Positions 1,243 through 28,016 of a stretch of DNA of 48,177 bases are shown piece by piece (position 1 is the first letter of the stretch; each line of letters starts with the position of its first letter). The notes under the pieces are model-generated. The model had not been told where the DNA came from. It made no database searches and was given only the letters and a program-made list of their open reading frames with translations. The stretch is from Sulfuritalea sp. (lineage in GTDB: Bacteria > Pseudomonadota > Gammaproteobacteria > Burkholderiales > Rhodocyclaceae), in assembly GCA_030696505.1 (NCBI GenBank), contig JAUYSD010000056.1:1-48177 (forward strand). Direction: 5' to 3'. Position numbers and translations under genes: made by a program.

Positions 1243-2037
1243 CTATTCCTTGTACCAGACCAGTTGCTGGGTGGTGGCGAGCAGTGTGCCGTCGCTGCTC
1301 CAGACGTGGCCGTGGTGGTCGAAGTGGCCATCGCTGAAGGCCTGGGCCTGGGCCACGGCGAGCAGCGGCGCAGCGCCCTGGCGGCTCAGTGCTTCTTCAC
1401 CGGCATGGAAGTAGATGTTGATCGAGACCGTACCGATCGGCACGAAATCCGGGCGGCGCAGGAAGATGCGCGGCAGGAAGGAATCGCACAGCGCGGTCAG
1501 TGAGGCGAAGTCGAGCGGGCGCGGCGGATTGTCGGCGACCCAGACCTGGGAGAGGCTGTCTTCATTCACGGCGAAGGGCTTGCCGCGCACGATGCGGAAC
1601 TCATAACGCTGGAGAAAGCCCGTGGCCTTGCGCGGCGGCGCGACTTCGCATTGTTCGGCCGGCGGCACGGCCGGCGCCGTGGCTTCGACCAGGCTCCAGG
1701 TTTCGCGGCGCAGGGCGCAGATGGCGATGGCCTGGGCCAGCACGCGGCCGGCCTGCGAGAGGCGGATCGCCCAGTGCTGGCTGTTGCGGTTGGCGCGCAC
1801 CAGTTCGGTGTCGATGGCGAACTCGCCGGCCGCGATCGGCGCCAGGAAATTCAGCGTGAAGGCCAGCGGCGTGCCGCGCCGTTCGGGATGGTCGAGCATG
1901 GCCTGCATCATGGCGCCGGCCGTGACGCCGCCATAGGGGCTGACCATGTTCCAGTAGTCCTCGCTGGTGCGGCCCAGCCAGCGGTCGGGCGGCTCGTGCG
2001 TCAGCGCGATGGCGGTGTCGAAGGGATGCGGATTCAC
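1243..2037 (-). CDS. acyl-CoA thioesterase, double-hotdog TesB-like
   Basis: Predicted 264-aa thioesterase-superfamily protein that would hydrolyse acyl-CoA to free acid and CoA. The N-terminal hotdog carries YGGVTAGAMMQAML, typical of TesB-like/4HBT_3 proteins, and the second hotdog ends in WSSDGTLLATTQQLVWY. The ORF-track start at 2325 is too early because that extension runs through the repeat mini-ORF and into the ligase. I choose the GTG at 2037 (VNPHPFDTAIALTHEP), whose GTGA overlaps the TGA stop of the mini-ORF and suggests translational coupling. It lies between the ligase and alcohol dehydrogenase genes. A role in releasing CoA or relieving dead-end acyl-CoAs is inferred. Confidence 0.8.
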   Translation of the reverse strand: MNPHPFDTAIALTHEPPDRWLGRTSEDYWNMVSPYGGVTAGAMMQAMLDHPERRGTPLAFTLNFLAPIAAGEFAIDTELVRANRNSQHWAIRLSQAGRVLAQAIAICALRRETWSLVEATAPAVPPAEQCEVAPPRKATGFLQRYEFRIVRGKPFAVNEDSLSQVWVADNPPRPLDFASLTALCDSFLPRIFLRRPDFVPIGTVSINIYFHAGEEALSRQGAAPLLAVAQAQAFSDGHFDHHGHVWSSDGTLLATTQQLVWYKE

Positions 2038-2156
2038 TGGACGGCTCTCCCCCCGGCCCCCTCGCCGAGCGAGGGGGTGACAATGGTTCGCCGCTGCGCG
2101 GCTCCGTGTGATGACTGGCGCCTCTTCGGGCGGCCGTGCGGGGCGCTCATGCTCAT
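2034..2156 (-). CDS. 38-40 codon repeat-borne mini-ORF, copy 1
   Basis: A small open frame filling the gap between ligase and thioesterase. Its ATG at 2156 overlaps the ligase stop as ATGA, with a second in-frame ATG at 2150. Its TGA overlaps the GTG start of the thioesterase. From the second ATG it encodes 38 residues beginning MSAPHGRPK and ending GEGAGGRAVQ, basic and low in hydrophobics. It matches the ORF at 22319-22435 at 108 of 117 nucleotides with no indel. No family is recognised. It may be a real peptide, or only a ribosome bridge through a repeat element. Confidence 0.5.
   Translation of the reverse strand: MSMSAPHGRPKRRQSSHGAAQRRTIVTPSLGEGAGGRAVQ
2041..2150. repeat. dispersed hairpin-rich repeat, copy 1
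   Basis: About 110 bp nearly identical to 22327-22435. It contains three potential hairpins: CCCCTCGCcgaGCGAGGGG, CCGCtgcGCGG, and a GCC/GGC arm around cttcggg. It lies exactly between two operon genes on the minus strand. No transposase is nearby, so it resembles a REP- or MITE-like element that left reading frames open. Confidence 0.8.
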
Positions 2157-3631
2157 ATCTTGCGCGAACGGCCGCTCCAGTAAGCATCGCGGATCTTGCG
2201 CTTCTGCAGCTTGCCGTTGTCGTCGCGCGGCAGCGCCGCAACGATGTCGATGCGGCGCGGCACCTTGTAGCCGGCGATGCGTTCGCTGAGCGCCATGCGG
2301 ATGGTCTCTGCATCCAGCGTGGCACCGGCTTCGGCCACCACCTGCGCTGCCAGCGACTCGCCGAATTCGTCGTCGGGGATGCCGACCACGGCGCAGTCGG
2401 CGACGCCGGGCAGGGTGATCAGCACATGCTCGATCTCGGCCGGGTAGATGTTCACGCCGCCAGAGATCACCATGTCCGCGGCACGATCGCAGACGAAGAG
2501 GAAGCCCTCGGCGTCCACGTAGCCCATGTCGCCGACGCTGATCAGTCCGTCGCGCTCGATGGCGCGGCGCGCGGCCTCGTTGCCGTGGTAGCTGAAGTCG
2601 GAATAGGCCGGCTGGTGCGCATAGATGGTGCCGATTTCGCCGTTGGGCAGGGCATGGCCGTTGTCATCGAAGATGCGGATTTCGGCGCGACCGAGCGCCT
2701 TGCCGGCGCTGCCGGGTTTGCGCGCCGCATCCTGCGGGCGCATCACGGTGATGTAGCCGGTTTCGCTCGACGCATAGGCCTCATGGATCACCGGGCCGAG
2801 CCATTCGATCATGGCGCGCTTGACCTCGGGCGCGCAGGGCGAGCCGGTCGAGGCGACGAACTTGAGCGAGGACAGGTCGTAGCGCGAGCGGACTTCGGCC
2901 GGCAGGCGCAAGAGGCGCACGTACATCGTCGGCACCAGGTAGGCGGTGTCGATGCGGTGGCGCGCGATCAGGGCCAGCGTGGCCTCGGCGTCGAATTTTT
3001 CCTCCAGTACGAACAGCGAACCCTGCAGCAGCGATTGCTGGGCGAAGGAACTCGGTGCGCTGTGATAGAGCGGCGCGGAGACCAGGCTGCGCACGCCGGG
3101 GTAGATGCCCAGTGCATCCTTCACGACCTGTGCGGCCAGGGCCTGCTGCTCCGCCGTCGGCGGCAGGCGGCGCACGCCCTTGGGCCGGCCGGTGGTGCCC
3201 GAGGTGTAGGCCATGTGGCCGCGCGGCGTGCGCGGCGGCCCGGCGTAAGGCGCCTGCGCGGCGAGCCAGGATTCGAAAGCGCCGGCGACGGGGTCCGGGT
3301 CGACGACGATCACCTGCACCCCGGCCGGAATCGCACCGGCGATGGCGGCCAGCAGGTCGGGCCGGATGAACAGCACTGTCGCACCGCAGTCATTGAGGAT
3401 GAAGCCGGCCTCGTCGCGCTTGAAGTGCCAGTTGATCTGGCAGTAATAGGCGCCGGCAATGCGGCAGCCCTGGATGATGTCGACGTAGGCCGGATGGTTC
3501 TTCAGCATCACGGCGACGGTGCCGCCATCCTCGACGCCGAGGCGGGCCAGCGCGCCGGCCAGGCGTGCGGCGCGCGCATCGATTTCGGCGCCGCTGCGTT
3601 CGACCGCGCCGCAGACCAGCGTCGCCGTCAT
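2153..3631 (-). CDS. acyl-CoA synthetase (AMP-dependent ligase)
   Basis: A 492-aa ANL-superfamily ligase that would activate a carboxylic acid to its CoA thioester with ATP, via an acyl-adenylate. The P-loop-like motif AYTSGTTGRPKGV lies near residue 150, the A5-type motif YASSETGYITVM near 290, and the hinge/C-terminal motif DMVISGGVNIYPAEIE near 390. A C-terminal lysine is in NGKLQKRKIRD. The start is set at 3631, where ATG overlaps the TGA of the upstream acyl-CoA dehydrogenase. The longer track ORF only reads antisense-like sequence through that gene. It probably supplies the entry CoA ester. Substrate unknown. Confidence 0.9.
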   Translation of the reverse strand: MTATLVCGAVERSGAEIDARAARLAGALARLGVEDGGTVAVMLKNHPAYVDIIQGCRIAGAYYCQINWHFKRDEAGFILNDCGATVLFIRPDLLAAIAGAIPAGVQVIVVDPDPVAGAFESWLAAQAPYAGPPRTPRGHMAYTSGTTGRPKGVRRLPPTAEQQALAAQVVKDALGIYPGVRSLVSAPLYHSAPSSFAQQSLLQGSLFVLEEKFDAEATLALIARHRIDTAYLVPTMYVRLLRLPAEVRSRYDLSSLKFVASTGSPCAPEVKRAMIEWLGPVIHEAYASSETGYITVMRPQDAARKPGSAGKALGRAEIRIFDDNGHALPNGEIGTIYAHQPAYSDFSYHGNEAARRAIERDGLISVGDMGYVDAEGFLFVCDRAADMVISGGVNIYPAEIEHVLITLPGVADCAVVGIPDDEFGESLAAQVVAEAGATLDAETIRMALSERIAGYKVPRRIDIVAALPRDDNGKLQKRKIRDAYWSGRSRKI

Positions 3632-4734
3632 GCGGCGCGGGACGCCTGTGACAAATGCGCGGCGAAGCGCTGCAGGTGAAAATCGGTGTCGCCGAATGTC
3701 ATTTCGATGGCGGTCAGGCGCTTGAACCAGTGGCTCAGGATCAGCTCGTCGGTCATGCCCATCCCGCCGTGCAGTTGCACCGCGTTTTGTGCGATGAAGC
3801 GGCAGGCCTGGCCTATGGTCACCTTGGCGGCCGAGAGCGTGCGCTGGCGTGCCGCCTGATTCTTCTCGGTGCAATGCATGGCGGCAAGATAGCTCATCGA
3901 GCGCGCCTGTTCCAGATGCAGCAGCATGTCCGCCATGCGGTGCTGCAGCGCCTGGAAGCGGCCGATGGGCTGGCCGAACTGCTGACGCGTCTTGAGGTAG
4001 TCGGTGGTGGCGGCGATGGTCGCGTCCATGATGCCGACCGCCTCGGCGCACAGCGCGGCGAGGCCGATGTCGAGCGCCGCATCGATCGCTTCCAGCGTCG
4101 CATCGTGCGTGCCGGCGTCCAGCCGCATCGCCGGCGCATTGCTCAGCACCAGATCCGCGGCGCGCTGGCCGTCGAGCGTCTGGTAGTCGCGCAGCTGCAC
4201 GCCCTCGGCGCCCGAGATCACGGCGAAAAGCCCCATCTCGCCGCGCGCGGTGCGTGCCGAGACCAGCAGCAGGTCGGCGCAGCCGCCGTGGGCGACCACG
4301 GCCTTGCGCCCCGACAGATTGCCGCCGATTTCCGTGACCAGCTCGCGGCGCGCATCGGCATGGGCGAGCACGACAATGGATTCGCCGGTGGCGATGTTTG
4401 GCAGCCACTCTTCCTGAAAGTTGGCGCTGGCGACACGGCGAATCAGCGCCGGTGCGATCACCGCGCCGGCCAGATAGGGCTCCAGCAGCAGGCCGGCGCC
4501 GAAAGCGCCCATCACCAGCCCGGTTTCCTGCGGTCCATAGCCGAGCCCGCCGTAATCCTCGTCGATGTTGAGCGCCAGCACGCCGAGGTCGGCCAGTCCC
4601 TGCCAGACCTCGCGGCTCCAGCCGGGTTCGGCATCGCGGATGGCGCGGCGCTTCTCGAAGCCGTAGTCCCTGGCGATGAAGCGCTGCACCGTATCGGCCA
4701 GCGCGCGCTGGTCTTCGTTGAAGTCGAAGTTCAT
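3628..4734 (-). CDS. acyl-CoA dehydrogenase, short subunit of a heteromeric pair
   Basis: A 368-aa acyl-CoA dehydrogenase starting MNFDFNEDQRALADTVQRF. The C-terminal flavin-domain motifs TRQQFGQPIGRFQALQHRMADM and QAVQLHGGMGMTDE-like sequence (AVQLHGGMGMTDELILSHWF) are present, while the central domain is divergent. It follows the 388-aa dehydrogenase by only 10 bp. Such adjacent long/short pairs are known from actinobacterial and proteobacterial steroid side-chain degradation (ChsE1/ChsE2-type), where the two proteins form an alpha2beta2 enzyme. The pairing here is inferred from order and sequence type. Its stop overlaps the ligase start by ATGA. Confidence 0.88.
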   Translation of the reverse strand: MNFDFNEDQRALADTVQRFIARDYGFEKRRAIRDAEPGWSREVWQGLADLGVLALNIDEDYGGLGYGPQETGLVMGAFGAGLLLEPYLAGAVIAPALIRRVASANFQEEWLPNIATGESIVVLAHADARRELVTEIGGNLSGRKAVVAHGGCADLLLVSARTARGEMGLFAVISGAEGVQLRDYQTLDGQRAADLVLSNAPAMRLDAGTHDATLEAIDAALDIGLAALCAEAVGIMDATIAATTDYLKTRQQFGQPIGRFQALQHRMADMLLHLEQARSMSYLAAMHCTEKNQAARQRTLSAAKVTIGQACRFIAQNAVQLHGGMGMTDELILSHWFKRLTAIEMTFGDTDFHLQRFAAHLSQASRAA

Positions 4735-4744
4735 GCCTGGTTCC

Positions 4745-5911
4745 TCACAGCCCCAGGATCATCTGCGAGATGATGTTCTTCTGGATTTCGTTGGAGCCGC
4801 CGAAGATCGACAGCTTGCGCAGATTGCAGTAGCCGGCGCCGAGGTTGGCGGCGTAGTCCGGGCCGACGTCCTGCTGGCCGAAGGGCAGGGCGTAGGGACC
4901 GACGGCCTGCATCATGAGTTCGGCGATGGCTTGCTGGATTTCCGTGCCCTTGATCTTGAGGATCGAGGCTTCCGGGCCCGGCGCCTGCTTCGCCCGTTCC
5001 GCAGACAGCACGCGCAGATTGGTGATTTCGAGCGCCATCAGGTCGATCTCGACCTGTGCCACGCGCGCCGCGAACAGCGCATCGGCCAACCTCCCCTCGG
5101 CTTCGGCGATGCGTTTCAAGCGCGCCAGCTCGCGCTTGGCGATGCCGATGCCGGCGATGTTGGTGCGTTCGTGGCCGAGCAGGAATTTGGCGTAGGTCCA
5201 GCCCTTGTTTTCCTCGCCGATCAGGTTCGCCGCCGGTACCCTGACCTCTTCGAGCCAGACTTCGTTTACTTCGTGCGCGCCGTCCAGGGTGATGATCGGA
5301 CGCACCGTGACGCCCGGCGATTTCATGTCGATCAGCAGGAAGGAAATCCCGCTTTGCTTTTTCGCCGCGGGGTCGGTGCGGACCAGGCAGAAAATCCAGT
5401 CGGCGTACTGGCCCAGCGTGGTCCAGGTTTTCTGACCGTTGACGATGTAGTGATCGCCTTCAGTCGAGTTAACCCTTACCGCCCGCGTTTTCACCGAGGC
5501 GAGGTCGGAACCCGCGCCGGGTTCGGAATAACCCTGGCACCACCATTCCTCGCCGGCCATGATTCTGGGCAGGAATCTGGCTTGCTGCGCCGGCGTGCCG
5601 AAGGCCATCAGCACCGGCGCGATCATCTTGAGGCCGAAGGAAATCAGCCGCGGCGCACCGGCGGCGGCGCATTCCTCCTCGAAGATGTACTGCTCGGTCG
5701 GCGTCCAGCCGGGGCCGCCGAACTCCCTGGGCCAGCCGGGGCCGCCCCAGTCGCGCTGGTGCAGGGTGCGCTGCCAGAGTATGTGGTCGTCGCGATTCAG
5801 ATGCACGCCGTTCATCACCTTGTCGCGGATGTGCGCAGGCAGTTTTTCGCTGACGAAGTTGCGGACTTCGGTGCGGAAGGCGCTTTCTTCGGGACTGAAG
5901 TTCAGATCCAT
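4745..5911 (-). CDS. acyl-CoA dehydrogenase, long subunit of a heteromeric pair
   Basis: A 388-aa acyl-CoA dehydrogenase, first gene of the operon. It would introduce an alpha,beta double bond in an acyl-CoA with FAD and pass electrons to ETF. Visible signatures are WWCQGYSEPGAGSDLA in the middle domain, GQKTWTTLGQYADWIFCLVR, the substrate/FAD region GEENKGWTYAKFLLGHERT, and the C-terminal IFGGSNEIQKNIISQMILG. It closely parallels the gene at 26184-27404, which heads the other acyl-CoA operon and is also followed by a short partner. The start ATG is at 5911. A GGAAC-N3-GTTCT palindrome lies about 100 bp upstream. Confidence 0.92.
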   Translation of the reverse strand: MDLNFSPEESAFRTEVRNFVSEKLPAHIRDKVMNGVHLNRDDHILWQRTLHQRDWGGPGWPREFGGPGWTPTEQYIFEEECAAAGAPRLISFGLKMIAPVLMAFGTPAQQARFLPRIMAGEEWWCQGYSEPGAGSDLASVKTRAVRVNSTEGDHYIVNGQKTWTTLGQYADWIFCLVRTDPAAKKQSGISFLLIDMKSPGVTVRPIITLDGAHEVNEVWLEEVRVPAANLIGEENKGWTYAKFLLGHERTNIAGIGIAKRELARLKRIAEAEGRLADALFAARVAQVEIDLMALEITNLRVLSAERAKQAPGPEASILKIKGTEIQQAIAELMMQAVGPYALPFGQQDVGPDYAANLGAGYCNLRKLSIFGGSNEIQKNIISQMILGL

Positions 5912-13207: not shown

Positions 13208-13276
13208 GGGGTCAGAGCAATTTGAAAAAGTCAGTGCTGACACGACGGGGATAGGAAATGCAAATTGCCAAATCAC
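13208..13276. repeat. 69-bp direct repeat, left copy
   Basis: Starts GGGGTCAGAGCAATTTG and ends CAAATTGCCAAATCAC. Internally palindromic: GCAATTTG pairs with CAAATTGC, and GTCAGTGCTGAC is a hairpin. A copy differing at several positions and one A shorter follows the broken RibD-like gene at 13954-14021. The GGGGTCAGAG end resembles widespread REP-type palindromes of proteobacteria. Confidence 0.85.
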
Positions 13277-13953: not shown

Positions 13954-14021
13954 GGGGCCAGAGTAATTTGAAAAGTCGGTGCTGACACGACGGCGACAGG
14001 AAATGCAAATTGCCAGATCAC
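13954..14021. repeat. 69-bp direct repeat, right copy
   Basis: GGGGCCAGAGTAATTTG to CAAATTGCCAGATCAC, in the same orientation as 13208-13276. It keeps the inner palindromes but, unlike the left copy, lacks the outer arm ending in CTCCGACTCC. Confidence 0.85.
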
Positions 14022-21869: not shown

Positions 21870-22322
21870 TCAGCCGTCCGGCTGTTCGCGCGGCGTGGCG
21901 GGCTTCATCAGGGCGAAGACACCGGTGCCGGTCATGATGGTGCGCTCGCCCGTGCGCAATGTGCAACTGGCATAGGCCAGGCGGCCGCCCATGCGGTCGA
22001 TGTTGACGTGGGCCTCGACCCAGTCGCCGGGTTCGGCGGCGGTGATGAAGTTGGTGGTCAGGCTGACCGTGACGATGGGCTGCGGCGGCTCGCGCGAACT
22101 GGAGACGACGATGCCCAGCGCGGTGTCCACCATGGTGACGAGGAAGCCGCCGTGGGCGATGTGGCGGATGTTGGTGTGCCGATCCTCGACGCGGATGGCC
22201 AGCACGATCTGGCCGTTCTCGCCTTTGGTTTCGTCGATGCGGTAGTACCAGGGGCCGAGGCTGGTCAGGTAGCCGCCGCCGCGCTTGAGCGGCTTGAAGC
22301 CGTCGGGGATATCGGTGCTCAT
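21870..22322 (-). CDS. hotdog thioesterase, PaaI-like
   Basis: A 150-aa single-hotdog thioesterase. HIAHGGFLVTMVDTALGIVV (about residues 55-75) is the PaaI-type catalytic region, with the acidic residue in the helix. The family hydrolyses acyl-CoAs, often to rescue CoA from stalled intermediates. The start ATG at 22322 overlaps the TGA of the repeat-borne mini-ORF as ATGA. The longer track ORF is out of context. It precedes the ComB-like gene by 7 bp. Confidence 0.86.
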   Translation of the reverse strand: MSTDIPDGFKPLKRGGGYLTSLGPWYYRIDETKGENGQIVLAIRVEDRHTNIRHIAHGGFLVTMVDTALGIVVSSSREPPQPIVTVSLTTNFITAAEPGDWVEAHVNIDRMGGRLAYASCTLRTGERTIMTGTGVFALMKPATPREQPDG

Positions 22323-22435
22323 TGGACTACCCTCGCCCCAGCCCCCTCGCCAAGCGAGGGGGTGACAATGGTTCGCCGCTGCGCGGCTCCGTGTGATGAC
22401 TGGCGCCCCTTCGGGCGGCCGTGCGAGGCGCTCAT
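22319..22435 (-). CDS. 38-codon repeat-borne mini-ORF, copy 2
   Basis: ATG at 22435 overlaps the TGA of the enoyl-CoA isomerase gene (ATGA), and the mini-ORF's own TGA overlaps the ATG of the thioesterase (ATGA). It encodes 38 residues starting MSASHGRPKGRQSSHGAAQ and ending GEGAGARVVQ. Compared with copy 1, 9 of 117 bases differ, none creates a stop or indel, and codons 11-27 are identical. It could be a peptide, a translational bridge, or a repeat that was tolerated because it is open in this frame. Confidence 0.5.
   Translation of the reverse strand: MSASHGRPKGRQSSHGAAQRRTIVTPSLGEGAGARVVQ
22327..22435. repeat. dispersed hairpin-rich repeat, copy 2
   Basis: Same element as 2041-2150. The terminal palindrome here is CCCCCTCGC-caa-GCGAGGGGG with a 9-bp perfect stem. 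It sits between operon genes and directly upstream of a thioesterase gene, as in copy 1. Confidence 0.8.
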
Positions 22436-23214
22436 GTCTTGTGTCCGTGGATTTTTGTGGGGTCGGGTGGGCGTTTTTCGAGGAAGGCGGCGAAGATTTC
22501 CTTGGCCGCCGGGGCTGCGACGAGGTCGGAGAAAAACACCACCTCCTCGTCCATGGCCTCGCGCGCACTGCGCTCGGGCGGACGCTTCATCAGCGCCTTG
22601 GTCACGGCCAGGGATTGTGCCGGCAGGGCGGCGAGTTTGCGTGCCGCAGCCATCGCGGTGTCCATCAAGGCGGAGGCGGGCACGACGCGATTGACGAAGC
22701 CCGCGGAGCAGGCCATCGTCGCATCGAAAGGCTCGCCCAGCAGCAGCAGTTCGGCCGCGCGCTGGTGGCCGGCGACGCGCGGCAGCAGCAGGCTGGAGCC
22801 GGCTTCGGGACACAGCGCGAGATTGACGAAGGGCAACTGGAACTTCGCGTTGTCGGCGGCATAGACCAGATCGCAATGCAGCAGCAGCGTGGTGCCGATG
22901 CCCACCGCATTGCCGGCGACGGCGGCGACCAGTGGTTTTTCGAAGGCCGACAGCAGGTGCAGGAAGGGGATCGCCGCGCTCGGATCATTGGCCTTGCGCT
23001 GCAGGAAGTCGCCGAGGTCGTTGCCGGCGGTGAACAGATCGTCCTGGCCGCGGATCAGTACCGCCCTGACGTGGCTTTGCTCGCGGGCATGGCCGAGCGC
23101 CGCGCTCATGGCGCGGTACATGTCGCCGGTGATGGCGTTCTTCTTGTCGCGGCGGCTGATCTCGATGCTGACGATGCCGTCGCTGTCGCTAACGAGGATG
23201 TTGGGGTGGGTCAT
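22432..23214 (-). CDS. enoyl-CoA hydratase/isomerase, Delta3,Delta2-isomerase-like
   Basis: A 260-aa crotonase. The CoA oxyanion-hole segments are FTAGNDLGDF (about residue 63) and GNAVGIGTTLLLHCDLVYA (about 100). FQLPFVNLALCPEAGSSLLLP carries a Glu in the position used as catalytic base by ECI2/Pec1p-type Delta3,Delta2-enoyl-CoA isomerases, while the second hydratase Glu is not evident. Isomerase is therefore favoured over hydratase. It follows the long acyl-CoA dehydrogenase by 16 bp and leads into the mini-ORF by a 4-bp overlap. Confidence 0.82.
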   Translation of the reverse strand: MTHPNILVSDSDGIVSIEISRRDKKNAITGDMYRAMSAALGHAREQSHVRAVLIRGQDDLFTAGNDLGDFLQRKANDPSAAIPFLHLLSAFEKPLVAAVAGNAVGIGTTLLLHCDLVYAADNAKFQLPFVNLALCPEAGSSLLLPRVAGHQRAAELLLLGEPFDATMACSAGFVNRVVPASALMDTAMAAARKLAALPAQSLAVTKALMKRPPERSAREAMDEEVVFFSDLVAAPAAKEIFAAFLEKRPPDPTKIHGHKT

Positions 23215-25060: not shown

Positions 25061-26181
25061 GCCGCGAGCAGCGTATCGCTGAAGCGGCCCAAGTGGTAGT
25101 CCGCGTCGCCGAAAGTCAGGCCGATCATGGTCAGGCGCTTGAAGTAATGGCCGACGTTGAGTTCGTCCACGACGCCCATGCCGCCGTGCAACTGCACCGC
25201 CTGTTGGCCGACCAGGCGGGCCTGGGTGCCGATGTAGGCGCGCGCGGCGGCGACGGCGCGGCTGCGCTCGGCGGAGTCAGGCGAGTCGACGCGCACCGCG
25301 GCCAGCGTGGCCATGGAACGCGCCTGTTCGGTGGCGATCACCATGTCGGCCATGCGGTGCTGCAGGGCCTGGAACTTGCCGATCGGCACGCCGAACTGCT
25401 TGCGCGTCTTCAGGTATTCGAGCGTGACTTCGTTGAGCGCCGACATGATGCCCACGGCTTCGGCGCAGAGCGCCGCGCTGGCGTAGTCGATGGCGCGCTC
25501 GATGACCGGCAGCGCAGCGCCAGCCGGCCCGATCAGCGCCTCGGCGCCGACCTGGACGCCGGCCAGTTTGACGTCGGCGGCGCGGGCGCCGTCCTGCGTC
25601 GGATAGCTGCGCAAGCTGACGCCGGGCGCCCTGGCGTCGACCAGGAACAGCGACATGCCTTTGCCGTCCATGGCTGAAACGATCAGTTTGTCGGCGGCAG
25701 GTGCGCCGAGCACCACGGCCTTGGCGCCGTCGAGCTGCCAGCCCTCGCCCTGCGCAGTGGCGGTGGTGGCGACCTGATCGAGCGCGTAGCGCGCGCCGGG
25801 TTCGTGATGCGCCAGCGCCAGCATCAGGTCTCCGCCGGCGGTCATGGGCAGCAATGCTTCCTTCTGCGCGGCGCTGCCGGCGTCGCGGATCAGCCCGCCG
25901 CAGAGCACGACGGTGGAGACATAGGGCTCCAGCGCCAGACCGCGGCCGAGCATTTCCATGACCAGCATGCTGTCGACGGCATTGCCATTCAGCCCGCCGA
26001 AATCCTCGGGAAAGGGCAGGGCGAGGATGCCGAAATCGGCGAAGGTCTTCCAGGCCGCGCGATCGAAGCCGTCGGCGGACTTCGCCAGCGCGCGGCGGTG
26101 CTCGAAGGGATAGTCCTTCGCGATGAAGCGGCGCAGGGTGTCCTGCAGGGCGAGTTGTTCTTCGGTGTAGTTGAAGTCCAT
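25057..26181 (-). CDS. acyl-CoA dehydrogenase, short subunit of second heteromeric pair
   Basis: A 374-aa acyl-CoA dehydrogenase beginning MDFNYTEEQLALQDTLRRF. It shares TRKQFGVPIGKFQALQHRMADM and QAVQLHGGMGVVDELNVGHYF with the protein at 3628, to which it is clearly homologous. The gene is only 2 bp after its long partner, and its stop overlaps the start of the long dehydrogenase at 25060. Start chosen at the ATG at 26181. The 737-aa track ORF includes a false upstream frame. An alpha2beta2 complex with the 26184-27404 product is inferred. Confidence 0.9.
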   Translation of the reverse strand: MDFNYTEEQLALQDTLRRFIAKDYPFEHRRALAKSADGFDRAAWKTFADFGILALPFPEDFGGLNGNAVDSMLVMEMLGRGLALEPYVSTVVLCGGLIRDAGSAAQKEALLPMTAGGDLMLALAHHEPGARYALDQVATTATAQGEGWQLDGAKAVVLGAPAADKLIVSAMDGKGMSLFLVDARAPGVSLRSYPTQDGARAADVKLAGVQVGAEALIGPAGAALPVIERAIDYASAALCAEAVGIMSALNEVTLEYLKTRKQFGVPIGKFQALQHRMADMVIATEQARSMATLAAVRVDSPDSAERSRAVAAARAYIGTQARLVGQQAVQLHGGMGVVDELNVGHYFKRLTMIGLTFGDADYHLGRFSDTLLAA

Positions 26182-26183
26182 GG

Positions 26184-27404
26184 TCAGAGTCCCAGGATCA
26201 TCTGCGAGATGATGTTTTTCTGAATTTCGTTGGAGCCGCCGTAGATGGTGGTCTTGCGCACGTTGAAATACTGTCCGGACAGCGGCGGTGCGTGGTCGGC
26301 ATAGGCGGGCATTTGCGGGTCGCCGCTCCAGTCGGCGGCCAAGCCTTCGTCGAGATAGGGCAGGGCATAGTGGCCCAGCGCCTGCATCTTGAGTTCGGTC
26401 AGCATCTGCTGGATTTCGGAGCCCTTGACCTTGAGGATCGACGCCTCCGGTCCCGGTGCGCGCTTCTTCTCGCCTTCGGCAGAGATTACGCGCAGATTGG
26501 TGATCTCCAGCGCCATGAGTTCGAGTTCGACCTGGGCGATGCGGTCGCGGAAGCGCTGGTCCTCGATCAGCGGGCGGCCGCCGGAGGTTTCCTTGCGCGC
26601 GATCTCCTTGAGCTTCTTCAGTTCGCGCTTGGAGCGGCCGACGCCGGCAATCCCGGTGCGCTCGTGGCCGAGCAGGAACTTGGCATAGGTCCAGCCCTTG
26701 TTCTCCTCGCCGATCAGGTTCTCGGCCGGCACCTTGACGTCCTCGAACCAGACTTCGTTGATCTCGTGTTCGCCGTCCAGCATGATGATCGGGCGCACCT
26801 CGATGCCGGGCGTCTTCATGTCGATCAGCAGGAAGGAAATGCCTTCCTGCTGGCGGCCTTCGGTACTGGTGCGGACCAGGCAGAAAATCCAGTCGGCGTA
26901 CTGGCCGAGCGTGGTCCAGGTCTTCTGGCCGTTGACCACGTAATGGTCGCCGTCCGCGCTTTTTACCAACTGGGCGCGCATTTTCAGCGAAGCCAGGTCG
27001 GAACCCGAACCCGGCTCGGAATAGCCCTGGCACCACCAATCCGTGCCGTCGATTATGCGCGGCAGGAAGCGCTGCTGCTGCACTGGATTGCCGAATGCCA
27101 TGATCACCGGCGCCACCATCTTGAGGCCGAAGGGCAGTTGCATCGGTGCTCCGGCATCGGCGCATTCCTCGTCGAAGATGTGCTGCTGCACGGCATTCCA
27201 GCCGGTGCCGGCGAAGGTTGCCGGCCAGCCCGACGCGCCCCAGCCCTGGGCGTGCAGCAACTTCTGCCAACGCACGAAATCATCCTTCGCCAGGCGTTTG
27301 CCGCCGAGCACCTTGCGGCTGATTTCGACGGGCAGTTTGGCGCGCAGGAAACTGCGCACTTCCTCCCTGAAGGACTGCTCCTCGGCAGTGAAATTGAGAT
27401 CCAT
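26184..27404 (-). CDS. acyl-CoA dehydrogenase, long subunit of second heteromeric pair
   Basis: A 406-aa acyl-CoA dehydrogenase, first gene of the second operon. DWWCQGYSEPGSGSDLA, GQKTWTTLGQYADWIFCLVR, GEENKGWTYAKFLLGHERT and TIYGGSNEIQKNIISQMILG match the protein at 4745 almost word for word. It is 18 residues longer, mainly because of an extra segment before the C-terminus (GLAADWSGDPQMPAYADH). The start ATG at 27404 is preceded by AAAGGA. The ORF-track start at 27638 crosses the promoter. A promoter and a GGAAC-N3-GTTCT palindrome lie just upstream. Confidence 0.92.
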   Translation of the reverse strand: MDLNFTAEEQSFREEVRSFLRAKLPVEISRKVLGGKRLAKDDFVRWQKLLHAQGWGASGWPATFAGTGWNAVQQHIFDEECADAGAPMQLPFGLKMVAPVIMAFGNPVQQQRFLPRIIDGTDWWCQGYSEPGSGSDLASLKMRAQLVKSADGDHYVVNGQKTWTTLGQYADWIFCLVRTSTEGRQQEGISFLLIDMKTPGIEVRPIIMLDGEHEINEVWFEDVKVPAENLIGEENKGWTYAKFLLGHERTGIAGVGRSKRELKKLKEIARKETSGGRPLIEDQRFRDRIAQVELELMALEITNLRVISAEGEKKRAPGPEASILKVKGSEIQQMLTELKMQALGHYALPYLDEGLAADWSGDPQMPAYADHAPPLSGQYFNVRKTTIYGGSNEIQKNIISQMILGL

Positions 27405-27735: not shown

Positions 27736-27812
27736 GGTGGCTGTAGCTCAGTTGGTAGAGTCCTGGATTGTGATTCCAGTTGTCGTGGGTTCGAGTCCCA
27801 TCAGCCACCCCA
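27736..27812 (+). tRNA. tRNA-His (anticodon GTG)
   Basis: Complete 77-nt cloverleaf. Acceptor GTGGCTG pairs with CAGCCAC. The extra G at -1 opposite the discriminator C is the histidine identity element. D-loop AGCTCAGTTGGTAGAG, anticodon loop TTGTGAT giving GTG, T-loop GGGTTCGAGTCCC, CCA encoded. It differs from E. coli tRNA-His at only a few positions. Confidence 0.97.
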
Positions 27813-27850: not shown

Positions 27851-28016
27851 TGTCCGCGGCGCCCTGCCGCGGACGGTATCCCCTGGTGGGATTTGTCTGC
27901 GGCGCCCAGCCGCAGACGGTATCCCCCGGTGGGATATGTCTGCGGCGCACAGCCGCAGACGGTGCTTTGCCCGCCTGGGATTCCGCTTCGCGGGCAGGCG
28001 TCCCCCGGTGGGATTT
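27851..28016. repeat. 43-bp hairpin tandem repeat array
   Basis: Two full 43-bp units (27851 and 27894) and a third hairpin (27937) of the form GTCTGCGGC-loop-GCCGCAGAC followed by GGTATCCCCCGGTGGGAT. A different palindrome (27966-27999) is followed by a fourth copy of the linker CCCCCGGTGGGATTT. Unit 1 has GTCCGCGGC/GCCGCGGAC, a compensated stem change. All six frames are open here, producing false ORFs. 28017-28269 shows no further feature. Confidence 0.85.

Follow-up and report, generated by a model that had tools for sequence, protein, structure and literature searches.

A MIRU-like interspersed repeat at operon stop/start junctions of Sulfuritalea that probably passes ribosomes across itself

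Two near-identical mini-ORFs, each directly preceding a thioesterase gene, lie in a 48,177-nt stretch of a Sulfuritalea sp. genome, the whole of which is referred to here as the window. Both are copies of an element present in about 60–85 copies in this Sulfuritalea-type genome. This element is very likely a MIRU-like mobile interspersed repeat, nearly neutral for expression, that hands ribosomes across itself.

Both window copies are on the minus strand (copy 2, 22435 to 22319; copy 1, 2150 to 2034). Measured from the shared ATG to the TGA, each spans 117 nt, and the two differ by nine substitutions with no indels, the near-identity that the first-pass annotation had described. Comparison of filled and empty orthologous sites (L220, L221) defines copy 2 (22319–22435) as a bridging mini-ORF of 38 codons plus a stop, with an ATGA overlap at either end; the insertion proper is 113 nt long (22323–22435), the figure of 117 nt including the duplicated ATGA. 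At the 5′ ATGA (22432–22435), the stop TGA (22434–22432) of an enoyl-CoA hydratase gene (ECH_1 by Pfam; 22432–23214, minus strand) overlaps the mini-ORF ATG. At the 3′ ATGA (22319–22322), which is the target copy, the mini-ORF stop TGA overlaps the ATG (22322) of a 150-aa hotdog thioesterase gene (4HBT, PF03061, by Pfam; 21870–22322, minus strand). Between these ends, and on the same strand, copy 2 contains hairpin 1 (GCGCCTC / GGGGCGC, 22403–22431), hairpin 2 (GCCGC-GCA-GCGGC, 22375–22387) and hairpin 3 (CCCCCTCGC-TTG-GCGAGGGGG, 22342–22362), followed by a Shine-Dalgarno-like GAGG (22331–22334) located 8 nt 5′ of the thioesterase ATG and recognized from the sequence and the family statistics. 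The family consensus at this position is GGAGG, of which copy 2 retains GAGG only.

Copy 1 (2034–2150, minus strand) is the same element in a similar setting. The downstream gene, a 4HBT_3/4HBT_3C acyl-CoA thioesterase by Pfam (1243–2037, minus strand), starts with GTG and forms a GTGA overlap at 2037. The upstream gene encodes an AMP-binding acyl-CoA ligase (Pfam; 2153–4408, minus strand, given as ORF limits, so that the true start may be internal). Because the ligase stop lies 6 nt 5′ of the shared ATG, within ATATGAGCATGAGCGCC, a second in-frame ATGA, the bridging ORF of copy 1 is 123 nt long and extends to 2156. The coupling on both sides that had been proposed, with co-directed flanking genes and NTGA stop/start overlaps at either end, was thus found at both loci, as was the difference in type between the two thioesterases.

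The two placements are independent, as had been supposed. Copy 2 is missing in the two closest sister genomes, both of which have copy 1, and BLAST places copy 2 closer to three copies elsewhere in the genome (95–96% identity) than to copy 1 (92%). Segmental duplication as the origin of both copies was considered and rejected, since the two nearest sisters carry copy 1 and lack copy 2. The window does hold paralogous stretches upstream of both element copies (3664–5694 and 25081–27187, about 21.4 kb apart, 71–91% identical), which are acyl-CoA dehydrogenase-like by context. It also contains a 51-nt direct repeat (13226–13276 and 13971–14021, 92% identical, 745 nt apart) and, just past a tRNA at 27737–27809, a 43-nt tandem repeat (27851–27936) with the motif GGTATCCCC.GGTGGGAT; an element copy at C176 has a similar motif, CCCACCAGGGGATACCGTCCC, nested within it.

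A search beyond the window showed many copies in the genome instead of two: BLAST with the element gave 45 matches, and 85 were obtained at E ≤ 1e-3 with a covariance model trained on 22 copies. The element was found in all 31 genomes of the genus that were searched, with 11 to at least 59 copies each. Outside the genus its distribution is patchy: one other genus of the same family has 58 copies, several genera have a few, and a genus from a different family has at least 12. The model gave no strong match in most other families of the order. Nearly all matches in an exact-pattern scan of named genomes came from Sulfuritalea, Rhodocyclales/Rhodocyclaceae MAGs, Ca. Desulfobacillus and Sulfurisoma. 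Some copies are arranged head to tail in tandem with a spacing of 113 or 116 nt, which keeps the chain of mini-ORFs coupled (G001:C66, G027:C50, G119:C34, G061:C1 and G186:C1).

According to coding-potential calls, 194 of 201 distinct copies (157 sense, 37 reverse) have co-directed coding flanks or lie in a gene interior, and the remaining seven, with mixed flanks, are low-margin calls. A strict bridge, in which an open frame connects two NTGA overlaps, is formed by 81 of 135 confident sense copies and 16 of 34 reverse copies. Other copies include fusions to the upstream gene and in-frame insertions within genes. In-frame gene-interior copies occur at loci L115, L113, L102, L119 and L117; one such copy is in a priA-like gene, and one is in a ROK-like kinase gene just before the CxCGxxGC motif.

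Empty orthologous sites indicate where the element inserts. At the copy 2 junction, two sister genomes with 97% identical thioesterases carry the uninterrupted sequence GACATGAGCACC or GACATGAACACC, relative to which the window has an additional 113 nt; in a further genome (G006), a different variant is present at this junction, apparently an independent insertion. The copy 1 site is filled in five genomes (G000, G027, G001, G024 and G007) and empty in G022 (AATATGAATCC). Over all loci compared, a frame-consistent NTGA overlap was present at 13 of the 15 empty junctions that correspond to sense copies. For reverse copies, an NTGA overlap was seen at none of the four empty sites, three of which are the same pyrB-pyrC junction. 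At C55, where the empty site reads GTGA, the insertion is bounded by GTGA on its 5′ side and ATGA on its 3′ side. The N of the 5′ overlap is therefore genomic, and that of the 3′ overlap is supplied by the element; copy 1 agrees, with ATGA at the empty site and ATGA (5′) and GTGA (3′) at the filled one. The apparent target duplication is TGA. Presence is patchy even between sisters whose flanking proteins share 97–99% identity. Unrelated repeats were seen at the same junctions in sister genomes (L210, L146, L279–L281, L261 and L289), and several of them (e.g., ATGAATAAATCTACTGCGCG... and ATGAGCTTGAAAAGCATTTGG...) likewise start at ATGA, as if several repeat families shared the same stop/start sites.

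Bridging requires that the downstream frame be +1 relative to the upstream frame, i.e., that the insert length equal 2 modulo 3, and the common insert lengths (113, 116 and 119 nt) all fit. In this genome, 24 of 39 sense copies and 14 of 21 reverse copies are in the bridging-compatible frame, against an expectation of one third; across the genus, the counts are 103 of 135 and 22 of 34. Because an insert of fixed length fits the frame trivially, the lengths of segments between conserved anchors were permuted among copies. The observed 65 of 75 sense copies in frame compares with a mean of 32 expected, and none of 20,000 permutations reached 65. When each distinct length combination is counted once, the signal is weaker (12 of 22 versus 7.25 expected, p = 0.03) and is therefore partly attributable to shared descent of subfamilies. 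For instance, where the arm of hairpin 1 is 2 nt longer, the following segment is longer by 1 nt, and where hairpin 2 is 2 nt longer, an extra 1 nt is again present. The frame also survives a nested 72-nt palindromic insert, which gives 189-nt mini-ORFs ending in GTGA or ATGA at C4 and C376. This palindromic module (TTCGCGGAGCACTGCTCCGCG...GCCGGCCGGC...) is located in hairpin 3 of some copies, extending the mini-ORF from 117 to 189 nt, and was seen at L160, L197, L290 and L294 and, in the genome of the window, at C4 (L016/L084), C187 (L018) and C376:12137. Bridging is not absolute, given the fusions, the gene-interior copies and the 10 of 75 measured sense copies (about 13%) that are out of the bridging frame.

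A Shine-Dalgarno sequence faces the downstream gene in either orientation of the element. In 52 of 83 bridged sense copies, the distance from GGAGG to the downstream start is exactly 8 nt; in 10 of 16 bridged reverse copies, it is 4 nt. The tail of the element strand carries GGAGG in 72 of 134 sense copies versus 4 of 29 reverse copies (nominal p = 7e-5), and the head of the opposite strand carries it in 3 of 134 sense versus 15 of 29 reverse copies (nominal p = 8e-11), both values being uncorrected for the relatedness of copies. We consider it possible, at somewhat less than an even chance, that some enzyme targets the NTGA overlap itself and that the subfamilies are adapted to their orientation, with the frame and the Shine-Dalgarno sequence facing the next gene; if so, the repeat would amount to a portable translational coupler of natural origin, specialized for operons.

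We propose that the element inserts at an NTGA where the stop codon of one gene overlaps the start of the next operon gene, the TGA being duplicated. On reaching the end of the upstream gene, ribosomes would reinitiate at the NTG with which its stop codon overlaps, translate the hairpin region as about 38 codons without meaning and terminate at the closing TGA of the element. Translation of the downstream gene would then begin at the NTG that overlaps this TGA, aided by the element's own GGAGG about 8 nt upstream. Translation of the operon would remain nearly intact and polarity, i.e., Rho-dependent termination on untranslated RNA, would be avoided, which would make the insertion tolerable even ahead of housekeeping genes. 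Of this scheme, we infer the translation of the mini-ORF, the reinitiation, the nearly neutral effect on expression and the movement by a transposase. More than 100 natural junctions constitute a library for studying reinitiation, polarity and the use of Shine-Dalgarno sequences, and sister genomes offer empty-site controls.

The first-pass annotation had also called for a covariation analysis of three hairpins, and two of them were borne out. For hairpin 1, pairing in class B copies is 87%, a level that no shuffle out of 5000 attained, versus 60% when arms are shuffled among copies; covariation is weaker in class A, where 5 of 5000 shuffles reached the observed pairing. For hairpin 3, pairing is 86% versus 79% with shuffled arms, and again none of 5000 shuffles attained the observed value. 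Hairpin 2 has too few stem variants, and its covariation is non-significant. Folding energy by itself is not unusual (z = −1.23); the support for hairpins 1 and 3 comes from covariation. A search of Rfam found no matching family. The hairpins may act as RNA or as single-stranded DNA in transposition. A cis-regulatory attenuator, with hairpins and mini-ORF tuning the translation rate or the mRNA stability of the downstream gene after the repeat was recruited for control, would account for the covariation of hairpins 1 and 3, for the Shine-Dalgarno sequence directed towards the downstream gene in both orientations and for the shared retention of some copies across species, such as copy 1, present in five genomes, and the pyrB-pyrC copy, present in five or more. 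However, the downstream genes have no common function, and the presence of the element is patchy in sisters with 97–99% identical flanking proteins; we regard the attenuator as unlikely.

The nature of the downstream genes bears on the functional link to thioesterases that had been suggested from the two window copies. A genome-wide listing by Pfam scan identified a 4HBT domain in 3 of 57 downstream proteins in this genome and in 2 of 79 in relatives, leaving 131 of 136 without one. The third such gene in this genome (4HBT_2, at C81) likewise follows an element copy. Copies thus stand largely before unrelated genes: most downstream families in the two scans occur once, and they include histidinol dehydrogenase, dihydroorotase, RodA/FtsW, LytB, CcmB, Rnf, ABC transporters and glycosyltransferases. 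The total of 5 in 136 exceeds the genome background of 16 4HBT matches in 4.4 Mb, a mild excess at most, which is post hoc and counts both window loci; tight acyl-CoA operons are, besides, where genes for thioesterases tend to be found. Dosage control specific to thioesterases could draw on this excess and on the three loci in this genome, but with 131 of 136 downstream proteins lacking the domain it is highly improbable, and the dosage control of a CoA-wasting enzyme envisaged earlier is not the general role of the element. The diversity of downstream genes, housekeeping genes included, fits tolerance of the insertion rather than a pathway-specific role.

Most copies retain an open frame, as would be expected if the mini-ORFs encoded a functional conserved small protein that spread as a cassette. 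We give this explanation almost no credence: purifying selection on the peptide is absent, with similar entropy at all three codon positions and close to the expected number of synonymous changes (336 versus 298 in 117-nt ORFs, 106 versus 104 in 120-nt ORFs), a Pfam scan of the peptide gave no match, and reverse copies are bridged by an unrelated peptide. For annotation, caution is advisable, as "hypothetical proteins" of 38–40 aa of this type are probably bridges and not genes.

Among known systems, the beta-proteobacterial repeat element BRE (Hot et al. 2011) is about 90 bp long, GC-rich and often tandem, and is located at gene ends, sometimes within ORFs and also between convergent genes (PMC3110155). 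Like it, our element is a short GC-rich repeat of Betaproteobacteria that occurs in tandem, at gene ends and sometimes within genes. A bridging ORF or an NTGA target is not reported for BRE (PMC3110155), with which our element was compared by description only. BRE is possibly a relative of the element.

As a non-autonomous hairpin repeat with tens of copies, the element also resembles REP/RAYT systems and bacterial MITEs, from which it differs in its NTGA target. An ordinary REP-type repeat mobilized by a RAYT (Y1 transposase), with the operon position a side effect of hairpin-based mRNA protection, would agree with the hairpin-rich, GC-rich sequence and with the one to four Y1_Tnp genes in six of seven genus genomes searched, and a TGA at the left flank and the right end would fit single-strand insertion of the IS200/IS605 type. 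We nevertheless judge it very unlikely. None of the Y1_Tnp loci examined in six genomes is near an element copy, no Y1 match was obtained in the 83% complete assembly of G001, which holds 59 copies or more, and REP placement would not predict frame maintenance. Our search for a parent insertion sequence covered Y1 transposases alone. With respect to MITEs, the element shows a TGA duplication, which fits, and on visual inspection its ends (GCGCC.. and ..GTCCA) do not form inverted repeats. Rickettsia palindromic elements have in-frame copies in gene interiors. A minority of copies of our element is likewise in frame inside genes, but its main habitat is the stop/start junction.

We found no earlier description of the family in the open-access literature, to which the search was confined. 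MIRUs, the mycobacterial interspersed repetitive units, are 46–101 bp long and occupy DTGA sites. They are said, in work by Supply et al. from 1997, to lack dyad symmetry. In common with our element, which has many copies at operon junctions (85 matches; 194 of 201 copies co-directed or intragenic), inserts in NTGA overlaps with duplication of TGA (13 of 15 sense sites, none of four reverse sites) and has an internal ORF overlapping the neighbouring genes, MIRUs are short interspersed repeats, apparently mobile, that insert at start codons (PMC12548453). Their internal ORF and the downstream gene are coupled at a spacing of −4 nt, and the insertion probably affects expression little; a minimal effect on the interrupted operon is considered a likely benefit, and the same review explains how Rho polarity acts on untranslated RNA (PMC12548453). 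The element differs in belonging to another phylum, in its length of about 113–119 nt, in its three hairpins, two of them clearly covarying, and in its reverse-orientation subfamily with a facing Shine-Dalgarno sequence of its own. Because of the hairpins and the host phylum, we class it as MIRU-like and not as a MIRU, a distinction drawn from descriptions of MIRUs and not from their sequence. The comparison suggests a separate origin, in Betaproteobacteria, of the MIRU strategy of a repeat through which operon translation continues, here in many copies and with a different, hairpin-rich architecture.
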